Part shown: one piece after another, positions 13,186-29,219 of the stretch
How positions within the stretch are numbered: position 1 is the stretch's first letter
Layout: the number at the start of each line of letters is the position of its first letter
Origin: Candidatus Hydrogenedentota bacterium
Lineage (GTDB): Bacteria > Hydrogenedentota > Hydrogenedentia > Hydrogenedentales > CAITNO01
Assembly (NCBI GenBank): GCA_012730105.1
Contig: JAAYBJ010000026.1
Span: forward strand, 1-36,648
Length of the DNA stretch: 36,648 bases
Direction of reading: 5' to 3'
The notes under the pieces: model-generated
Seen by the model: the letters and a program-made list of their open reading frames with translations, nothing else
What the model was told of the DNA's origin: nothing
Database searches by the model: none
Translations under genes and position numbers: made by a program

Positions 13186-14520
13186 TTACTTGAACCAGGG
13201 GGCCAGGTCAATGCGGGTAAAAGGACGGTCCGTAGCGGGGACAGGGGGATTGTTTCCCGCATTAGCCACATACAGGGTGTTATTTTTGGGGTCAAAGACC
13301 ATGGAATGAAGCGTGCCGTTATTGTATACGGGCTCGGTGGCCAGCAGCTGGATGGCTTCCCGAACATCCACTTTGCCGGGCTGTTTTTCTATTTCCCGGC
13401 TCAGACATTCATAGCGCTTCCAGGAATCTTCGTTTTTAAGCAGAGGAAGCAATGTTTCAATGTCGGTCTCGGAAGTCACCGTGAGGCCGAACTCCTCGCC
13501 CATCCCGATGCCGAGCCGCAGTAGTTGGTCCATGCCGACAGGGTGGTTGGTGCGCCTCACCATGTCTTCCATGCCCCAGTGGCCGGTTCGCTCGCTTTCC
13601 TTTGCGTCCATGGGTTCAAAAACGGTGCAGTATTTGGCGTCCGTTTCGAGCGCGCGTCCACTTGGGATTTTGCCGTCTCCCAGGATAAAATTCCAACCCG
13701 TCGTCCTGTTGCAGGTTTCGATGAAGGTTACCGCCTCCTCCAGGGTTGCGGATTTTTCAAGAGTCAGGCGCATCTGCAGGAACAGGGGCAGGCCGTCGAA
13801 GGTGGCGTCCGGCGAAGGCAGCGTCATTTCACCCATGGTGATGCCCTTGCTGTTCATGCCGCTGACGCTGCCGATCCCGCCCGCCCAGCCGACCATCATA
13901 AACGGGAAGCCGCCCTTGGGCCGCCACACCAAAACTACATGACTGTCCTGGGCGTCGCCCTTGATGTTCCAATCCAGATTGCGTCCGTGCAGCAACCTGC
14001 CGTCCGTGGTCCATTTGCCCCAGCAGGCGAAATTGGAGCAGGCGGGCGGGCCATCGGGCGGGAAATGCAGGATTTCGGCCTGTGTGATGCCGAGACGTAT
14101 CTCCTCGTAGGTGATCTCGTATCCCGCTTCCTGAACGCCGCGGGTCAGGCCGCGCAGTTCTTCCTTTGCAGATTGCGGGAAAAAGTTTTCCATCCTTTGT
14201 GACTGCGCAATAACATACTCCCGGGAATACCCGCGGTTCCAAAGCGCTTTGGGCATGTAGCCTTCTTTAATAATATAATTGATTTTGCCGGCGAGCAGTT
14301 TGCCGTGCTGGTACCCCATCTCCTCCGGCGTGCCTTCCATGACCAAGACAGGGTGCTCTCCTACTTGGTACAACTTCCCGGCGCCTTCTTCCGCCACCAG
14401 TGTGACTTCCGGTGATTCAATTATCGTGACTTCCCGGGCGTGGACCGGGGCGATCCACGCAACGCCTCCCAAAACGACAATCAGAAACAGCAGACCCCGC
14501 ATAGTAGTTTTTCTGGCCAT
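13186..14520 (-). CDS. Exported C45-family Ntn-hydrolase (acyl-CoA:6-APA acyltransferase-like)
   Basis: This 444-residue protein starts MARKTTMRGLLF, with a clear signal peptide (hydrophobic core to about residue 25, cleavage near VHA-R). The chosen ATG has AAAGGAAA 5 bases upstream; longer in-frame starts would put extra residues before the signal. The mature part fits the C45/AAT superfamily: 'EMGYQHGKLLAGKI' near residue 67, the likely nucleophile Cys at about 161 in 'PACSNFACWG', and then 'GRLLHGRNLDWN' about 15 residues on. 'GWAGGIGSVSGMNSKGITMG' and a late 'NGTLHSMVFDPKNNTLYVA' also match. Family members self-cleave before the Cys and hydrolyse or transfer acyl-amide groups. The substrate is unknown. 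An envelope location is inferred from the signal. Confidence 0.82.
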   Translation of the reverse strand: MARKTTMRGLLFLIVVLGGVAWIAPVHAREVTIIESPEVTLVAEEGAGKLYQVGEHPVLVMEGTPEEMGYQHGKLLAGKINYIIKEGYMPKALWNRGYSREYVIAQSQRMENFFPQSAKEELRGLTRGVQEAGYEITYEEIRLGITQAEILHFPPDGPPACSNFACWGKWTTDGRLLHGRNLDWNIKGDAQDSHVVLVWRPKGGFPFMMVGWAGGIGSVSGMNSKGITMGEMTLPSPDATFDGLPLFLQMRLTLEKSATLEEAVTFIETCNRTTGWNFILGDGKIPSGRALETDAKYCTVFEPMDAKESERTGHWGMEDMVRRTNHPVGMDQLLRLGIGMGEEFGLTVTSETDIETLLPLLKNEDSWKRYECLSREIEKQPGKVDVREAIQLLATEPVYNNGTLHSMVFDPKNNTLYVANAGNNPPVPATDRPFTRIDLAPWFK

Positions 14521-14718
14521 AGTGATTTCCTTTCCCGGCATGTAAAACCGCCTTTTCCCTAAGTACGCAGTGTTAAACGGACAAACCACAATCCTTAGAC
14601 TCGCTTTACAGGGTTTGGGCTACAAGTATACTAAAAAGGACCATGACATCCGGACACGACAGTGTTAACCGCAGGATGCGGGGGACGGATTCTTTCCCTT
14701 CGGGATGGGCCCGGTAAA

Positions 14719-15708
14719 TTAACGAATCAGCGTATTTCCGGAAGCGGCGACATGTGACTTCTGCAGTTGATTTGCTTTCGACAACCACCCAGCCAGACGC
14801 CGCAAGTCGTCGTCCGTGGTTCCTCGGGGTCCGAGGCCGAGGGCGGGATAGAGGCAGCCGCGAACAATCCATACCAGAAACAGGAACGAGGCCAGCGGAT
14901 ACACAATGCCGTTGAGGATTTTGATTACGGCAAGTTTTCCGACAGAGAGCGTAATGTCTCCCAGCGCGGTACGGGAGTAGTCGGCAATCCTGGCGACCTC
15001 GTTCTTGAGCGCCGTTGTTTTCTCCGTAAGTCCCTCTGCATTTTGAAATTCGTCCATTGAAAACACCTCCCCCATTTTTTCAAAGGACGACCACATGTCC
15101 TGGCCCAATACCATGGTGGTATGCCTGGAAAGATAGGCCGCCCCGTAAACCGTGAGCGGAAGGATGGCCATCACCATCAACGCGCACAGCAAAAACATGG
15201 GCCCGACCTTCTTCAGCACCTGCCGGGTAGGATTTTCCGAGTGCAGGACCATCCCGGCCAGGGTATCCAGCAGATACGCGGTGACGCATATGACGAGAAA
15301 CGGTTGCGCCACCGCATTGGTCCCCATCAGGATGGTCTTGGCCGACAGCAGATATACCATGCTCAGGAGCAGAAGTTTCCAGGCGACATTTATGTATTCT
15401 AAAATGGGCTGCAGGGCATCTCCGGCTTCTATGTTCATGTTTGCCGAGGCCACCAGAAGGTTCGCTTCCATCTGGGTAGTGGAGCCCTCGATAATATCGG
15501 CGCCGGCCTTGGCAATGCCGAGAGGTATCATAAGATGCATCGTATCTTTCAGGGATTCGTCCAGGTAGTTCTGATTATACGTTGCAAGGGATCGTGTCAG
15601 TGCGTCTGTTATTTCCGTCAGTCTCCCGGACAGCGTAAGCCACAGTATCGCACCGAGGAATACAATGAAGATGCTTGTTTTCCACCACGAGGTGTTGTTA
15701 TGGTCCAT
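14719..15708 (-). CDS. Multipass membrane protein of unknown family
   Basis: The start ATG at 15708 (MDHNNTSWWKT) has AGGAG 7 bases upstream; 329 residues. Hydrophobic stretches lie near residues 11-27, 108-128, 133-155, 169-193 and 260-285, so about five membrane spans. Two loops are likely: an amphipathic one (about 30-105, rich in acidic and helical sequence) and a second (about 196-258) with possible coiled-coil character. The C-terminus is soluble, with 'GPRGTTDDDLRRLAGWL'. I recognise no family. It is divergently oriented to the serpin gene (132-base shared upstream region), and it lies upstream, 198 bases away, of the C45 gene on the same strand. Confidence 0.75.
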   Translation of the reverse strand: MDHNNTSWWKTSIFIVFLGAILWLTLSGRLTEITDALTRSLATYNQNYLDESLKDTMHLMIPLGIAKAGADIIEGSTTQMEANLLVASANMNIEAGDALQPILEYINVAWKLLLLSMVYLLSAKTILMGTNAVAQPFLVICVTAYLLDTLAGMVLHSENPTRQVLKKVGPMFLLCALMVMAILPLTVYGAAYLSRHTTMVLGQDMWSSFEKMGEVFSMDEFQNAEGLTEKTTALKNEVARIADYSRTALGDITLSVGKLAVIKILNGIVYPLASFLFLVWIVRGCLYPALGLGPRGTTDDDLRRLAGWLSKANQLQKSHVAASGNTLIR

Positions 15709-15840
15709 TCCACTTCTCCTTGTTTTGGATCGCATATTTCCTGATACTTAAGGGTAAGAAAGTTCGATTCTTCATGATAAAAAGCATGGGCATGTAAACG
15801 AGATAACCGTTCCGGACGTTAAGGTGAAAAGGAGAAAAAA

Positions 15841-17037
15841 ATGAAACCCTGTTTTGTTTCAACACTTGCGGTAACGGCCATCCTTTTTATGCAAGGCGCT
15901 TTCTCAGATAACGTTCAAGCCCTGCAGGAAGGCAACAGCGCCTTTTGTTTTGATTTGTACCGGGTTCTTCGAAATGAAGAGGGCAACCTTTTCTTTTCGC
16001 CGTACAGCATTTCCACGGCGTTGGGCATGACCTATGCCGGCGCCCGCGGTGATACTGAAACGGAAATGGCGACCGTTCTCCATTTTCCCTGTGGCCAAAA
16101 TACTGTGCACGAATCCTTTTCGAAGCTTCAGTCTCATTTGACTTCGATTCAGGACAAGGGAACTGTCCAGCTTAACGTAGCCAACGGCCTGTGGATCCAG
16201 CAGGACTATCCTCTCTTGGGCGATTTTCTAGACCTGACCAAAAAGCATTATGGCGCCGGGATACACCCTGCCGATTTCGCAGGCAATACGGAAGCCGCTC
16301 GGAAAGCCATCAATACCTGGGTGGAACAGGAGACCCGGGAAAAGATACAGGACCTGATCAAGCAGGGAATGTTAGATACCGCTACGGTGCTTGTATTGTG
16401 CAATGCCATTTATTTTAAAGGAGACTGGCTCAGTGCGTTTGATAAAGTGAAAACACGGGACGCGGATTTCCATGTCGGTCCGGGGAAAACCGTTAAGGCG
16501 CCCATGATGAACCAGAGTACGGAAGTAAAATTCCGGCGTTTCGAGGGTTTCAGCGCGATAGAACTGCCCTATGTGGGCAACGACCTGTCCATGGTGGTCT
16601 TCCTGCCTGAACAACAGGACGGTCTGTCGGCATTCGAAGAAATGCTAAATCATGGCACGGTCAAAGCATGGCTCGATGATCTCTCGAATACAAGTATTTC
16701 GGAGGTGAATCTCAGTCTGCCCAAGTTTAAGGCAACCTGTGAATTTGACCTGTCTGCGGTTCTAATAGAAATGGGCATGGAACATGCCTTTTCAGGCGCT
16801 GATTTTTCGGGAATGACCGGCCGGAAGGATCTTTTCATCAGCAAGGTCGTTCATAAGGCTTTTGTGGATGTGAACGAGGAAGGCACTGAAGCGGCCGCGG
16901 CCACGGCGGTCATTATGGACAAGGCCTTTCACCGGCCATTGGCTTTCAGGGCGGACCATCCATTCGTGTTCCTGATCCGGGAGAATGAGACAGGAAGTGT
17001 TTTGTTTGTGGGCAGGATAGTGGATCCGACACTGTAA
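15841..17037 (+). CDS. Exported serpin (serine protease inhibitor), inhibitory type
   Basis: This 398-residue protein has a signal peptide (core residues 8-20, cleavage near AFS-D), so it is likely periplasmic or secreted. Serpin landmarks run in order: 'NLFFSPYSISTALGMTYAGA', 'LNVANGLWIQ' near 111, 'LCNAIYFKGDW' near 186, 'IELPYVGNDLSMVVFLP' near 240, 'LSLPKFK' and the closing 'ADHPFVFLIREN'. The reactive-loop hinge EEGTEAAAATA (residues 346-356) has Gly at P15, Thr at P14 and small residues at P12-P9, the pattern of inhibitory serpins. The scissile bond should fall near residues 361-363 (K-A-F), so an elastase- or chymotrypsin-like target is plausible. AAGGAG lies 6 bases before the ATG. 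The GH89 gene follows 60 bases downstream. Confidence 0.95.
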   Translation: MKPCFVSTLAVTAILFMQGAFSDNVQALQEGNSAFCFDLYRVLRNEEGNLFFSPYSISTALGMTYAGARGDTETEMATVLHFPCGQNTVHESFSKLQSHLTSIQDKGTVQLNVANGLWIQQDYPLLGDFLDLTKKHYGAGIHPADFAGNTEAARKAINTWVEQETREKIQDLIKQGMLDTATVLVLCNAIYFKGDWLSAFDKVKTRDADFHVGPGKTVKAPMMNQSTEVKFRRFEGFSAIELPYVGNDLSMVVFLPEQQDGLSAFEEMLNHGTVKAWLDDLSNTSISEVNLSLPKFKATCEFDLSAVLIEMGMEHAFSGADFSGMTGRKDLFISKVVHKAFVDVNEEGTEAAAATAVIMDKAFHRPLAFRADHPFVFLIRENETGSVLFVGRIVDPTL

Positions 17038-17097
17038 TGTAACAGGTCGGCGGGTGGAGCGGTGGGTTGCATAAGCGCCTACGGTGGAGTTTCTGAC

Positions 17098-19290
17098 ATG
17101 AGATATCTTACAGCCACTTGTATGTTTATTGCCCTTGGATGCTGTGCCGCCGCTTCCGGGGAAAGCGCACAGGAGGCGGTCCGGGGCCTTGTGTCTCGAC
17201 TCCTTCCGGATCATGCGGAAGCATTCTTGTTTGAACCCCTGCCGCCTGAAAATGATCGGGACGTGTTTGAGATTGAAGCGCAGGGGGGGACGGTGGTCGT
17301 GCGCGGTTCAACCGGTGTTGCTATGGCTTCAGGACTGAACTGGTACCTGGAACAGTGCTGCGGCACAAGCGTGTCTTTGCGAGGTAATCAACTGAATTTG
17401 CCGGATCCGCTGCCGATGCCCGAAACGAAAATACGTATAGTCACTCCTTTTCGGTATAGGTATTGTTTTAATTACTGCGTTTTCAGTTATTCCATGGCGT
17501 GGTGGGATTGGGAACAATGGGAACAGGTAATCGACTGGATGGCCCTGCAGGGAATAAACATGCCTCTTGCGGTCACTGGACAGGAGGCGGTTTGGCGTTC
17601 GGTGTACCGGGAAATGGGCCTTGATGACGATGATCTGGCCGCTTTTTTTGTAGGCCCGGCCTTTCTGCCCTTCGGTTGGATGGGCTGCATGGACGGCTGG
17701 GGTGGTCCGTTGACGGATGACTGGGTAGACCGGCATGCGGCGCTGCAATGCAAAATAGCGGCGCGTGAACGCGCCTTCGGTATGACGCCTGTTCTCCAGG
17801 GATTCACAGGCCACGTTCCGGCGGCGCTTGCCAGGGTTCGACCGGAAGCGAAGTATCAGCAACTCCCAAGTTGGTGCGGTTTTCCCGGCACGTTATTTGT
17901 GGATCCACAGGACCCGCTTTTTAAAGAAATAGGTTGGCGTTTCATTGAGGAACAAACCCGAAGCTTCGGAACGGACCATTACTATGCGGCGGACACCTTT
18001 ATCGAGATGTCGCCGCCCAGTGACGATCCCGCTTTTATAAAAACCATGGCGGAAGCGGTCTATGGTGGCATGGCGGCGGCTGACCCGAAAGCGAAGTGGC
18101 TGATGCAGGGCTGGCTATTCGTTAATAATCCCGATTTCTGGAAAGAAGCCCAGACGGAAGCGCTATTGACGGCGCTGCCGAATGAAAAAATGCTTGTGCT
18201 GGACCTGTGGTGTGAAAATGAGCCGGCTTGGAATCAAACCCGGGCGTTTTATGGCAAGCCCTGGCTGTGGTGCATTATACAGAGTTTCGGCAACCAGGTA
18301 AGCCTGCATGGGGGCCTGCCCCAGATAGTGCGAAACCTCAAGCAAGCCCTGGAAAGCCAGGATCGGGGCGACCTCCAGGGCATGGGGCTTATCATGGAAG
18401 GGTTGGACTACAATCCCGTGGTGTTCGACCTGATAGGCGATCTCTTTTGGCAGCCGGAGTGTCCCGGCCTCGACGCTTGGATTGCCGCCTATGTCCTGCG
18501 CCGCTACGGTCGAGATCATGCGGATGTCCTGGAAGCGTGGCAACTGCTGCTCGACACGGCTTACCGGGTTCCAGGGCACGCCGGGTCGGACATTTGCCGC
18601 CGCCCTGTTCTGGAGGATGCGGGACAGGTGCCTGGTTCCAGGCGAGGCTATGATGTTGTTCGATTAGCCCGGGCGTGTGATTACCTGCTCAGGGCCCCCG
18701 GAGAACTTCAAGAGTGCGATACGTACCGTTACGATCTTGTCCATGTCCTGCGGCAGGTGTTGTCCGATCTGGCGGTACCCTTTAGTGCGGAAGTGTCGGC
18801 GGCTTATCATGCGGGCGACCGGGAGCGTTTGACGGCGGCGGGAAACCGCCTTCTGGAACTGTTAAGCGATACGGATAGTCTGCTGGCGACCCGTGGGGAG
18901 TTCCTGCTTGGCAGCTGGCTGGCCGAAGCCCGCAGTTGGGGGCGCACGGCGGAAGAAAAAGCCCACTATGAATGGAATGCCCGTAACCAGATTACGCTCT
19001 GGGGCCCCGAGGACAGCAGATTGCATGATTATGCCGCCAAGCAGTGGTCGGGCCTGGTTGGCGGATTTTATCTGCCCCGTTGGAAGATGTTCGTGCAACG
19101 CCTGGATGAAGCCCTTGCAGCGGGAATTCCCTTTGACGCCGCTGCCTGGGAAAAGGAGATTCGCGCCTGGGAGGCCGGATGGACCCGTCAACAGGAGTCC
19201 TATCCTGAAATGCCCTCGGGAAATGCGGTGACGGTTGCCCGGCATTTATGGGAGAAATATCACGAGGCAGCTCTAAAAGAAGGGGGATGA
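17098..19290 (+). CDS. Exported alpha-N-acetylglucosaminidase, GH89 (NAGLU-like)
   Basis: The start ATG at 17098 has GGTGGAG 8 bases upstream; 730 residues. The N-terminus is a signal peptide, possibly lipoprotein type (a Cys pair follows 'IALG'). An N-terminal alpha/beta domain is followed by the GH89 barrel: 'MAWWDWEQWEQVIDWMALQG' (20), 'GINMPLAVTGQEAVW', then 'HYYAADTFIEMSPPS'. The acid/base Glu in DTFIEM is at about 303 and the nucleophile Glu in 'IMEGLDYNPVVFDL' at about 434. These correspond to the known catalytic pair of human NAGLU (E316/E446). A helical C-terminal domain completes it. The family removes terminal alpha-linked GlcNAc from glycans such as heparan sulfate or mucin. Pairing with a serpin suggests action on host- or protein-derived glycans; that is inference. 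Confidence 0.93.
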   Translation: MRYLTATCMFIALGCCAAASGESAQEAVRGLVSRLLPDHAEAFLFEPLPPENDRDVFEIEAQGGTVVVRGSTGVAMASGLNWYLEQCCGTSVSLRGNQLNLPDPLPMPETKIRIVTPFRYRYCFNYCVFSYSMAWWDWEQWEQVIDWMALQGINMPLAVTGQEAVWRSVYREMGLDDDDLAAFFVGPAFLPFGWMGCMDGWGGPLTDDWVDRHAALQCKIAARERAFGMTPVLQGFTGHVPAALARVRPEAKYQQLPSWCGFPGTLFVDPQDPLFKEIGWRFIEEQTRSFGTDHYYAADTFIEMSPPSDDPAFIKTMAEAVYGGMAAADPKAKWLMQGWLFVNNPDFWKEAQTEALLTALPNEKMLVLDLWCENEPAWNQTRAFYGKPWLWCIIQSFGNQVSLHGGLPQIVRNLKQALESQDRGDLQGMGLIMEGLDYNPVVFDLIGDLFWQPECPGLDAWIAAYVLRRYGRDHADVLEAWQLLLDTAYRVPGHAGSDICRRPVLEDAGQVPGSRRGYDVVRLARACDYLLRAPGELQECDTYRYDLVHVLRQVLSDLAVPFSAEVSAAYHAGDRERLTAAGNRLLELLSDTDSLLATRGEFLLGSWLAEARSWGRTAEEKAHYEWNARNQITLWGPEDSRLHDYAAKQWSGLVGGFYLPRWKMFVQRLDEALAAGIPFDAAAWEKEIRAWEAGWTRQQESYPEMPSGNAVTVARHLWEKYHEAALKEGG

Positions 19291-19356
19291 CGCCCGCAGG
19301 CGATGCAGGTTCTGAAGGTTTCGGCAAAACACCCGGGTTCTCAAGACCTGCCATGA

Positions 19357-19362
19357 TATACT
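19357..19362 (+). promoter_or_regulatory. Candidate -10 box for corA
   Basis: TATACT at 19357-19362, part of TGATATACT, lies in the 113-base gap between the GH89 stop and the corA GTG. The matching -35 region is weak. A transcript starting near 19369 would give a 35-base leader. Confidence 0.3.
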
Positions 19363-19403
19363 TTACTTGCGTTGGGTGGTCAACACTACAAGGATTGCAT
19401 GCC

Positions 19404-20468
19404 GTGGCGAAGAAAAACAGCTCTTACAAAAAAAAAGTCGCCCTGCCCCCGGGTTCACTGGTTCACGTGGGCAAGGCCAGTGGCACAGAGGTGCGGCTCA
19501 CGGTTATCGCCTATGACGCAAGCCAGTATTACCACACGGTCATCCAGGATCTGTCTGAGGTGGACGCGTATGCGCAGCGGGCCGCTGTGACCTGGCTGAA
19601 TATCGAGGGACTGCATGATACCCGGCTTCTGGAGGCTATCGGGAACAAGCATTCCATTCACCCGCTGACCCTGGAGGACATCCTGAACACAAACCAGCGC
19701 CCCAAGGCCGACTTTTTTGACGAGTATGTCTATTTCGTGCTCAAGATGATCCGTTATGATAATGTGCGCAAAGCGCTCGATACGGAACAGATAAGCCTGG
19801 TACTGCTTCCCAACATGGTCATTACCTTTCAGGAACATCCGGGTGACGTGCTCGATCCGCTGCGCCAGCGTCTTGAAAAGGCAAAGGGCAGGGTCCGCCA
19901 TGAAAGCGCGGATTTTCTGTTTTATTCCATCATAGACGTCATCATAGACCATTACTTTGTGTGCCTTGAGGACATGGGCGAAGAAATAGAGGGCCTGGAG
20001 GCGCAGGCACTTGAGAATCCGGTGCCCGGCCTGGTGCCCAGTCTGCAGCACATCAAACGGGACTTGCTGATCATGCGCAAGGGGGTGTGGCCGCTTCGGG
20101 AACAAATTACCGCGCTGTTGCGTGAGGAGCATCCGATAATACAGGCTTCCACGGCCATTTATTTGCGCGACCTGTATGACCATACGATCGCCATTATCGA
20201 CACCGTGGAAAGCTTTCGTGACATGACCTTCGGCCTGCTTGATGTCTATCTCTCCAGCCTGAGCAACCGCATGAACGAAGTGATGAAAGTCCTGACGATT
20301 ATTGCCACTATTTTTATTCCATTGACCTTTATTGCCGGCATTTACGGCATGAATTTCCAACATATGCCGGAACTGGGCATGAAATGGGCTTATCCTGTCA
20401 CATTAGGCGTGTGTGCGGTGATCGCCGGCGCCATGCTTGTTTTCTTTCGCAGGAAACACTGGTTATAA
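19404..20468 (+). CDS. corA: CorA-type magnesium/cobalt transporter
   Basis: I chose GTG 19404 (AKKNSSYKKKVALPPG), with AAGGA 9 bases upstream, giving 354 residues, typical of CorA. Earlier in-frame starts run back into the GH89 gene and lack homology. The cytoplasmic domain includes 'VTWLNIEGLHD' and 'HPLTLEDILNTNQRPKAD'. The long stalk helix is followed by two C-terminal membrane spans, with the selectivity motif GMN in 'AGIYGMNFQHMPE'. The protein ends in the basic RRKHWL. It forms a pentameric Mg2+ channel in the inner membrane. hslU follows 84 bases later. Confidence 0.95.
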   Translation: MAKKNSSYKKKVALPPGSLVHVGKASGTEVRLTVIAYDASQYYHTVIQDLSEVDAYAQRAAVTWLNIEGLHDTRLLEAIGNKHSIHPLTLEDILNTNQRPKADFFDEYVYFVLKMIRYDNVRKALDTEQISLVLLPNMVITFQEHPGDVLDPLRQRLEKAKGRVRHESADFLFYSIIDVIIDHYFVCLEDMGEEIEGLEAQALENPVPGLVPSLQHIKRDLLIMRKGVWPLREQITALLREEHPIIQASTAIYLRDLYDHTIAIIDTVESFRDMTFGLLDVYLSSLSNRMNEVMKVLTIIATIFIPLTFIAGIYGMNFQHMPELGMKWAYPVTLGVCAVIAGAMLVFFRRKHWL

Positions 20469-27598: not shown

Positions 27599-27876
27599 CC
27601 ATAGGCCTGTTGCAGCTGGAATTGCTCCTGCCCGAAGCGCATTCTCTGAAAGACAAGCGGCGTGTGATCAAGAGCTTGAAGGACCGGCTGCACGGCAAAT
27701 TCAACTGTTCGGTGGCCGAAACGGGCGGTCAGGAGCTGTGGCAGCGCTGCACCCTTGCCGTATGCATTGTGGGCGGGGAATCCCGGCACGTGAATAGTCA
27801 GCTCAGCGCCGTTGTTACCTTTATTGAGATGAATAGTCCGGCCGTGCTGGCGGATTACAGGATAGAGATGTTATGA
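27595..27876 (+). CDS. DUF503 family protein (YlxP-like)
   Basis: A 93-residue protein whose GTG overlaps the infB stop (GTGA) and whose stop overlaps the next ATG (ATGA). It has the DUF503 pattern: 'LLLPEAHSLKDKRRVIKSLK', followed by 'FNCSVAETGGQELWQRCTLA' and a final helix. The family is small and dimeric, with a ferredoxin-like fold. It is usually encoded between infB and rbfA (ylxP of Bacillus), and a role in ribosome assembly is presumed. The overlaps on both sides indicate tight translational coupling. Confidence 0.93.
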   Translation: MTIGLLQLELLLPEAHSLKDKRRVIKSLKDRLHGKFNCSVAETGGQELWQRCTLAVCIVGGESRHVNSQLSAVVTFIEMNSPAVLADYRIEML

Positions 27877-29219
27877 AAGCAAAAGGCAGAACGCTCCGTG
27901 TCGGCGCCCTTATCAAGGAAGAAATCGCGAAGCTTATCATGAAAGGGCTGAAAGACCCGCGCATCGGTTTCGTGTCCATAATGGATGTGCGTATGTCCAG
28001 TGATCTGCGCTATGCGAATGTGTATGTCAGTCTCTTCGGTTCGGAATCCGAACGCAAGAGTTCGCTTATCGGACTGCAGCATTCCTCCGGCTGGATACGC
28101 CATGAAGTGGGCAAATATCTGCGGATGCGCGTTCTTCCCGAAATTCGCTTTTTCCCGGACGACACTCTTGACAAGGTGTATCATCTGGAGGAGGTTTTCG
28201 AGGAGATCCACGCCGAACAGCAGCAGCAACCGATGTTGGCCCTGTCTCTCGAAGAAGCCGTCGCCACGTTGCGGACCGGCGCCCGTTTTTATATTGTATC
28301 GCATGTAAACCCGGACGGCGATGCCATAGGAAGCATGCTGGCCTTGCGTCTTCTGCTGCGCCATTTCGGAATTACGGAAATTGTCTGCGCCCTGGACGGA
28401 GCGGTTCCTGCCATATACAAGGATCTTCCCGGCGCCGACACCATTGTCAACGCGGCCACTGTGCCGGCGGAATATGACATCGCGGTATTGGTGGATTGTG
28501 GGTGTCTTTCCCGTGTGGGCGACCTGGCGGAACACATTCCCTTCGGGAAAAGAATCCTGATTTTTGATCATCACCAGGAAGACGGCGAACCTGGCGCCTC
28601 GGGCATCGTTGATACCCGGTATGCGGCAACCGGCGAGCTTATCGCGGAGTTGTACAAGGCGGCTGGTGCGCCTTGGACGGAGGAGTCTGCGGCATGTCTG
28701 TATGCGGCGGTAGCCACAGACACCGGATGCTTCCGGTTCTCCAATACCACCTCACGTTCGCATCACCTGGCCGCTGAGTTGATGGAGGCGGGCATCGACA
28801 TTGGTCTGCTGAACAAAAAGTTTTTCAGTGATGTCAGCCGGATGAAATTTGAATTGATGCGGCTTGCCCTCTCTCACGTGGAGTTTCATTTTGGCGGCGC
28901 CGTGGCGTTGTCCCGCTTGACCGGCGAAGATCTGCGGGAAGCGGGCGCGCAAAGGGAAGACGCGGAAAACCTGATCAATATCTGGCAGGCGGTGGACAGC
29001 GTCCGGGTCGCCATTCTCCTGAAATCCTTTGAACCGGATAAGGTCCATGTGAGTTTCCGTTCCGACGCCACCTTCGATAGTGCCGCGTTTTTGCGCCGTT
29101 TCGGCGGCGGCGGCCACGCCCCCGCCGCGGGCGCAACCCTTGAGATGCCCCTGGAAGACGCGCGTGAAAGTATTCTCACTGCGCTGGGCGGGCATAAATC
29201 CTTTCTGAAAAGCTCCTGA
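27873..29219 (+). CDS. Fusion of ribosome-binding factor A and a DHH/DHHA1 phosphoesterase (RbfA-NrnA)
   Basis: One uninterrupted 448-residue frame. Residues 1 to about 115 match RbfA: 'RTLRVGALIKEEIAKLIMKG', 'LKDPRIGFVSIMDVRMSSDL', 'LRMRVLPEIRFFPDDTLDK'. After a QQQQ linker (116-119) comes a full NrnA-like module. It has H144 and D148/D150 in 'SHVNPDGDAIGS', D208 in 'LVDCG', DHH 232-234, D283 in 'ATDTGCFRF', and the DHHA1 motif GGGGHAPAAG at 411-420. RbfA matures 16S rRNA on the 30S. NrnA-type enzymes degrade short RNA oligonucleotides and often dephosphorylate pAp. In most genomes these are two adjacent genes. An in-frame ATG at residue 121 (28233) might allow a separate NrnA product, but the nearest AGGAG is 27 bases away. 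Confidence 0.92.
   Translation: MKAKGRTLRVGALIKEEIAKLIMKGLKDPRIGFVSIMDVRMSSDLRYANVYVSLFGSESERKSSLIGLQHSSGWIRHEVGKYLRMRVLPEIRFFPDDTLDKVYHLEEVFEEIHAEQQQQPMLALSLEEAVATLRTGARFYIVSHVNPDGDAIGSMLALRLLLRHFGITEIVCALDGAVPAIYKDLPGADTIVNAATVPAEYDIAVLVDCGCLSRVGDLAEHIPFGKRILIFDHHQEDGEPGASGIVDTRYAATGELIAELYKAAGAPWTEESAACLYAAVATDTGCFRFSNTTSRSHHLAAELMEAGIDIGLLNKKFFSDVSRMKFELMRLALSHVEFHFGGAVALSRLTGEDLREAGAQREDAENLINIWQAVDSVRVAILLKSFEPDKVHVSFRSDATFDSAAFLRRFGGGGHAPAAGATLEMPLEDARESILTALGGHKSFLKSS

Follow-up and report, generated by a model that had tools for sequence, protein, structure and literature searches.

The serpin gene and the GH89 alpha-N-acetylglucosaminidase gene which lie side by side in the window (the whole stretch analysed, 36,648 nucleotides, being one whole contig of a draft genome of 5.63 Mb in 343 contigs) belong to a genus-limited cluster of exported proteins and not to a general serpin-GH89 system. 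Linkage of the two genes was found in three species of one genus of Candidatus Hydrogenedentota, while the genomes surveyed contradict a specific serpin-GH89 partnership holding generally across the phylum. The preferred explanation, held at a probability of roughly one half, is that of a small genus-specific exported cluster in which a suicide-substrate serpin would guard exported proteins, GH89 included, from serine proteases.

The serpin and its reactive loop

Two exported-type proteins encoded as neighbours on the same strand, as proposed by the sequence-only reading, were confirmed as a complete serpin (15841-17037) and a complete GH89 enzyme (17098-19290); both are real homologues of their families, far beyond chance. 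The serpin (398 residues, + strand) carries a full-length serpin domain (PF00079, 428 bits, profile positions 2-370 of 370 covered), and is the only serpin found in the window's genome. A Shine-Dalgarno-like AGGAG (15830-15834, + strand, read from the sequence) stands six bases before its ATG, from which a probable Sec signal peptide, MKPCFVSTLAVTAILFMQGAFS (15841-15906), was read by eye; a lipobox pattern has no match in this N-terminus. Signal peptides had been claimed for both proteins and, judged by eye, both N-termini do look Sec-like.

The hinge and reactive centre loop, EEGTEAAAATAVIMDKA-FHR, run from E346 (P17) to R365 (P3') at 16876-16935 (+ strand), as placed by alignments and a register count. 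The hinge EEGTEAAAATA had been assigned to the inhibitory type, and EEGTEAAAA at residues 346-354 indeed fits the pattern E-x-G-T-E-A-A-A-A given for P17-P9 of inhibitory serpins (PMC10090351). Among solved structures the best match is 8gxv (320 bits), which bears the title 'Proteinase inhibitor I4 serpin' and is taken to be chloropin of Chlorobium limicola because its loop shows Arg-Ser at P1-P1' as the paper gives. Chloropin is described as a proven inhibitor, with its P1 Arg inferred by mass spectrometry (PMC10090351). The window serpin has the same hinge pattern and an equal hinge-to-P1 count, whereas in the register with chloropin (hinge glycine counted as P15) its P1 is Ala362 (16924-16926), followed by Phe363 as P1'; Lys361 is a possible alternative P1. 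A P1 Ala points to elastase- or subtilisin-like proteases as targets, and the three subtilisin-family matches of the own genome are possible own targets. The window serpin is a predicted inhibitor, whose inhibition and target we infer from these residues. The serpins of two sister species (G002 and G003) match the window serpin at every loop position from the hinge up to P1, with FHQ or SIR coming next, while the whole serpins of the three congeners are ~71% identical. An AlphaFold model of the serpin, made from 2 sequences for inspection of the loop, was unusable (pLDDT 36.6).

A heparin-type cofactor link, in which GH89 would trim a serpin-activating glycan, was considered because chloropin is accelerated ~17-fold by heparin with the involvement of lysines 126, 127, 268 and 269 (PMC10090351), and because the window's genome has seven heparinase II/III-domain matches. 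It was rejected, as K126, K127, K268 and K269 of chloropin correspond to Asp105, Lys106, Asn247 and Asp248 of the window serpin (numbering set from P1 = Arg383), three of the four lysines of the patch thus not being kept.

The GH89 enzyme, the gap and the surrounding genes

The exported GH89 protein (730 residues, + strand) is composed of three NAGLU Pfam domains (N, TIM-barrel and C; 92, 457 and 284 bits, each above the curated cut-off) and is the genome's sole strong GH89 match, a second, weak match (38 bits) lying elsewhere. Its mechanical open reading frame begins at GTG 17062; ATG 17098 is the preferred start because GGAG (17086-17089, + strand) stands eight bases upstream and because the N-terminus that follows, MRYLTATCMFIALGCCAAASG, is of the export type. 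This N-terminus is also compatible with a lipobox (Cys15). Human NAGLU (4XWH, 563 bits) ranks first among its relatives of solved structure, and both this protein and CpGH89 (2VC9, 396 bits) align over near the whole length with both catalytic Glu, the window enzyme differing from them in being bacterial and exported. Glu303 (18004-18006, + strand) aligns with Glu483 of CpGH89 and Glu434 (18397-18399, + strand) with Glu601; at these two columns 2VC9 has Glu, and Gln stands in the E483Q/E601Q mutant (chain 4A4A). Since both catalytic Glu are present, an active GH89 is expected. The serpin and GH89 are two ordinary members of their families, probably active, with export-type starts.

Action on the alpha-GlcNAc ends of animal-type glycans had been attributed to the enzyme. 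The GH89 is of the active type, but 'animal-type' is not the sole possibility, because Bt3590 of Bacteroides thetaiotaomicron, a bacterial NAGLU homologue, cleaves heparosan oligosaccharides (PMC8225759) and because Hydrogenedentes are named as one of the phyla with an enrichment of enzymes that act on sulfated and uronic-acid polysaccharides (PMC12555021).

With GH89 starting at ATG 17098, the spacing of 60 bases on one strand that had been reported for the pair is exact (17038-17097, + strand, read from the sequence). A consensus scan gave no promoter- or terminator-like site within this gap; over 15600-19500 it gave two promoter-like sites vs 2.5 expected from shuffles and nine terminator-like sites vs 5.1 expected (sd 2.5), so that the scan decides little. 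The two genes are probably co-expressed, and we infer co-transcription. G002 and G003 share a CGTGCTATAATAA stretch ~55 bases upstream of the serpin start, perhaps a promoter of its own (judged by eye); it is absent from 15736-15840 of the window, also read by eye.

Upstream, and divergent from the serpin, the window encodes a membrane-type protein of 338 residues (14719-15735, - strand), with no Pfam match and found in none of the five related genomes searched; 13186-14589 (- strand) encodes a C45-type autoproteolytic acyltransferase/hydrolase whose N-terminus is of the export type. Further downstream, a single open reading frame (27873-29219, + strand) joins RbfA (residues 1-114, above the cut-off) to an NrnA/DHH-type phosphoesterase part (residues 125-424; 94 bits, below the NCBIfam cut-off), and its homologue of like length in the congener G001 (L114:419-1759) is 75% identical.

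Linkage within the genus and beyond

Adjacency in one genome alone weighs little and was therefore tested in relatives, with a sample of 147 genomes (own included; 68 from the phylum and 79 from other phyla). Serpin matches occur in 35 of the 147 and GH89-family matches in 22 (within the phylum, 15/68 and 21/68, respectively), and both genes in seven. In three of these, all of one genus, the genes are linked: the window's genome (G000), G002 and G003. The remaining four (G052, G055, G058 and G063) have them on different contigs, so that outside the genus both genes occur in 4/143 genomes and never on the same contig; the GH89 matches are weak or partial in three of the four (52-76 bits) and full in G058 (482 bits). 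The phylum without the genus shows 4 co-occurrences in 64 genomes vs 3.4 expected (p 0.45); with the genus included, the count is 7/68 vs 4.6 expected (p 0.12). Six further genomes of the family (G004, G007, G009, G012, G014 and G016) have GH89 and no serpin. Thus, a general serpin-GH89 pairing is not borne out, as the phylum outside the genus is unlinked with co-occurrence at chance, and linkage in independent lineages was not found among the 147 genomes. Since only one of the 79 genomes from other phyla (G082) has GH89, this thinly sampled set hardly tests linkage. Among 14 control genomes, Bacteroides ihuae matches both families.

Within the genus, linkage is kept in 3/3 congeners having either gene; G001 (95% complete), the remaining congener, lacks both. 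The neighbourhood search which the sequence-only reading had proposed thus recovered the linkage in two congeners, but direct adjacency in the window's genome alone among the 147. G002 and G003 have the order serpin, an exported middle protein of 387 residues and GH89 on one strand, with serpin and GH89 72-73% identical to the window copies. In both, the cluster comes after a PQQ-propeller gene; the window genome's orthologue of this gene (on contig C202, 78%) has no serpin beside it. The window pair directly precedes corA, which in G002 lies on contig C99 while the single serpin of that genome lies on C514. The PQQ orthologue without a serpin and the placement of corA indicate that serpin and GH89 are linked at two different chromosomal places. 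Alignments of the window's 60-base gap to the four gaps of the sisters were equalled in score by 260 to 498 of 500 shuffles, and hence do not discriminate between the window's genome having lost the middle gene and the sisters having gained it.

The region downstream of the PQQ gene looks as if it were an insertion hotspot. In G003 and in the window's genome it holds a GGACTYAAAGGAC inverted repeat (L095:8387-8438 and L141:4559-4627), and in G002 a 23S-IVP-like gene (L094:18322-18891; weak match, below the Pfam cut-off) stands between the PQQ gene and the cluster.

The middle protein (L095:5782-6945, - strand, and its relatives), which separates serpin from GH89 in the sister species, belongs to a family present in 20 of the 147 genomes, the window's genome not among them. 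This family is strongly conserved (71% mean column identity, 13 sequences), with a D-x-E-P-Y-G motif and an export-type start. Neither Pfam nor NCBIfam gave a match for the G003 copy; a glycosidase-like nature would be a guess. A profile search against solved structures gave a lone weak match to AcrIF9 (E 0.018), which was not credited, and an AlphaFold model built from one sequence (pLDDT 41.8) was too poor for use.

The neighbours of other serpins, scanned as 19 proteins from 14 of 20 loci, vary widely: a GH95 protein (G058), a sulfatase of the SGSH type close to the G059 serpin, a protein with a collagen-binding domain (G052), a second serpin (G106), a transglycosylase, phosphoesterases, kinases and an S41 peptidase, among others. 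No GH89 occurs among these 19 proteins, two of which match nothing, and no protease inhibitor among ten GH89 neighbours at seven other loci, four of which match nothing; no enrichment is claimed from these counts. Serpin neighbours so varied, along with the pair being split in the sister species, indicate that the serpin needs no glycosidase.

Protection, chance and the meaning of the cluster

Under the preferred explanation, the serpin would be translocated by Sec and would fold into its metastable state; a protease cleaving the reactive loop near Ala362 would be held as a covalent complex once the cleaved loop inserts into sheet A. Such suicide-substrate trapping is the usual route of serpins. 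The proteases, elastase- or subtilisin-like, would come from neighbours or from the cell itself, and the task of the serpin would be the broad one of guarding exported proteins, including a GH89 that would cleave terminal alpha-GlcNAc off glycans scavenged by the cell; contact between the two proteins is not required. In favour of this explanation stand the complete serpin with its inhibitory hinge and its kinship to chloropin, the three domains and both catalytic Glu of GH89, the order and strand shared with G002 and G003, the loop kept identical up to P1, and the subtilisin-family matches as possible own targets. So do quick trees, in which the GH89 and serpin copies of the three species both group as (G000,(G002,G003)) at similar depth, with SH-aLRT support for the genus clade of 100 (GH89) and 94 (serpin), as expected if both genes were present in the common ancestor. 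The protective purpose is a proposal, and the linkage lends mild support to a functional link, since a single block translocation would keep the genes together without selection.

The pair could instead be chance neighbours, two accessory exported-protein genes joined once in the ancestor of the three species and carried since as a block, which is a tentative reading of some weight. It accords with linkage that is limited to the genus, direct in one genome, at differing places and with the middle gene present or absent, as well as with the chance-level co-occurrence outside the genus. In the serpin tree, the genus clade adjoins a serpin of another phylum (that of G073), the four sampled genomes of which lack GH89, and serpin and GH89 thus had separate earlier histories. 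Further, the two genes have the lowest GC3 of the ten window genes measured (0.58 for the serpin and 0.61 for GH89 vs 0.64-0.71), a newcomer-like composition that fits late arrival weakly. Against mere chance stand the linkage retained, at two places, in every congener having either gene and the lack of GH89 in the congener without a serpin. An assembly artefact joining two places of the draft genome is highly improbable as the source of the direct adjacency: the draft is in 343 contigs, the sequence on either side of the pair is unlike that in the sister species and the GC3 of the pair falls below that of the eight other genes, but the genes are linked in two other drafts at 72-73% identity. 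The pair itself is therefore no artefact, and at most its place in the window's genome could be.

Dedicated protection, in which the serpin would specifically shield GH89 (and, in the sisters, the middle protein) at the same site in the manner of cellulosomal serpins, is unlikely. Export-type starts and gene order in common speak for it; six genomes of the family, on the other hand, manage GH89 without any serpin, and the anchors may differ, as a lipobox fits the sister serpins and the window GH89 and not their respective partners. Cellulosomal serpins sit in the cellulosome via dockerins, whereas the window serpin consists of the serpin domain only and neither protein of the pair has a dockerin or another joining domain. 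The clostridial cellulosomal serpins and Dpi nevertheless provide a precedent, the former being described as shielding complexes of glycoside hydrolases against proteases of the subtilisin type (PMC12484212). Such a pairing was not familiar to the sequence-only reading, yet the idea of protection has forerunners, the cellulosomal serpins of Clostridium thermocellum having been proposed as guards of secreted glycoside hydrolases (PMC12484212). In the open-licence literature, no report was found on a serpin in Hydrogenedentes or on a serpin joined with a polysaccharide utilization locus; the one paper found that names both serpin and GH89 (PMC4971063) mentions the two separately. It is similarly doubtful, and a long shot, that the cluster is an export module with the serpin co-expressed with, and specifically stabilising, GH89 and (in the sisters) the protein of the undescribed family, as a scaffold-free counterpart of the cellulosomal serpins in a glycan scavenger.

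As the evidence stands, the cluster exemplifies accessory exported genes at the level of a genus and draws attention to the uncharacterised family of exported proteins encoded between the two genes in the sister species. If it works as a unit, gene order would here link a bacterial serpin to an enzyme of glycan degradation outside any cellulosome, and the patchy distribution of serpins among bacteria would gain an explanation open to testing.
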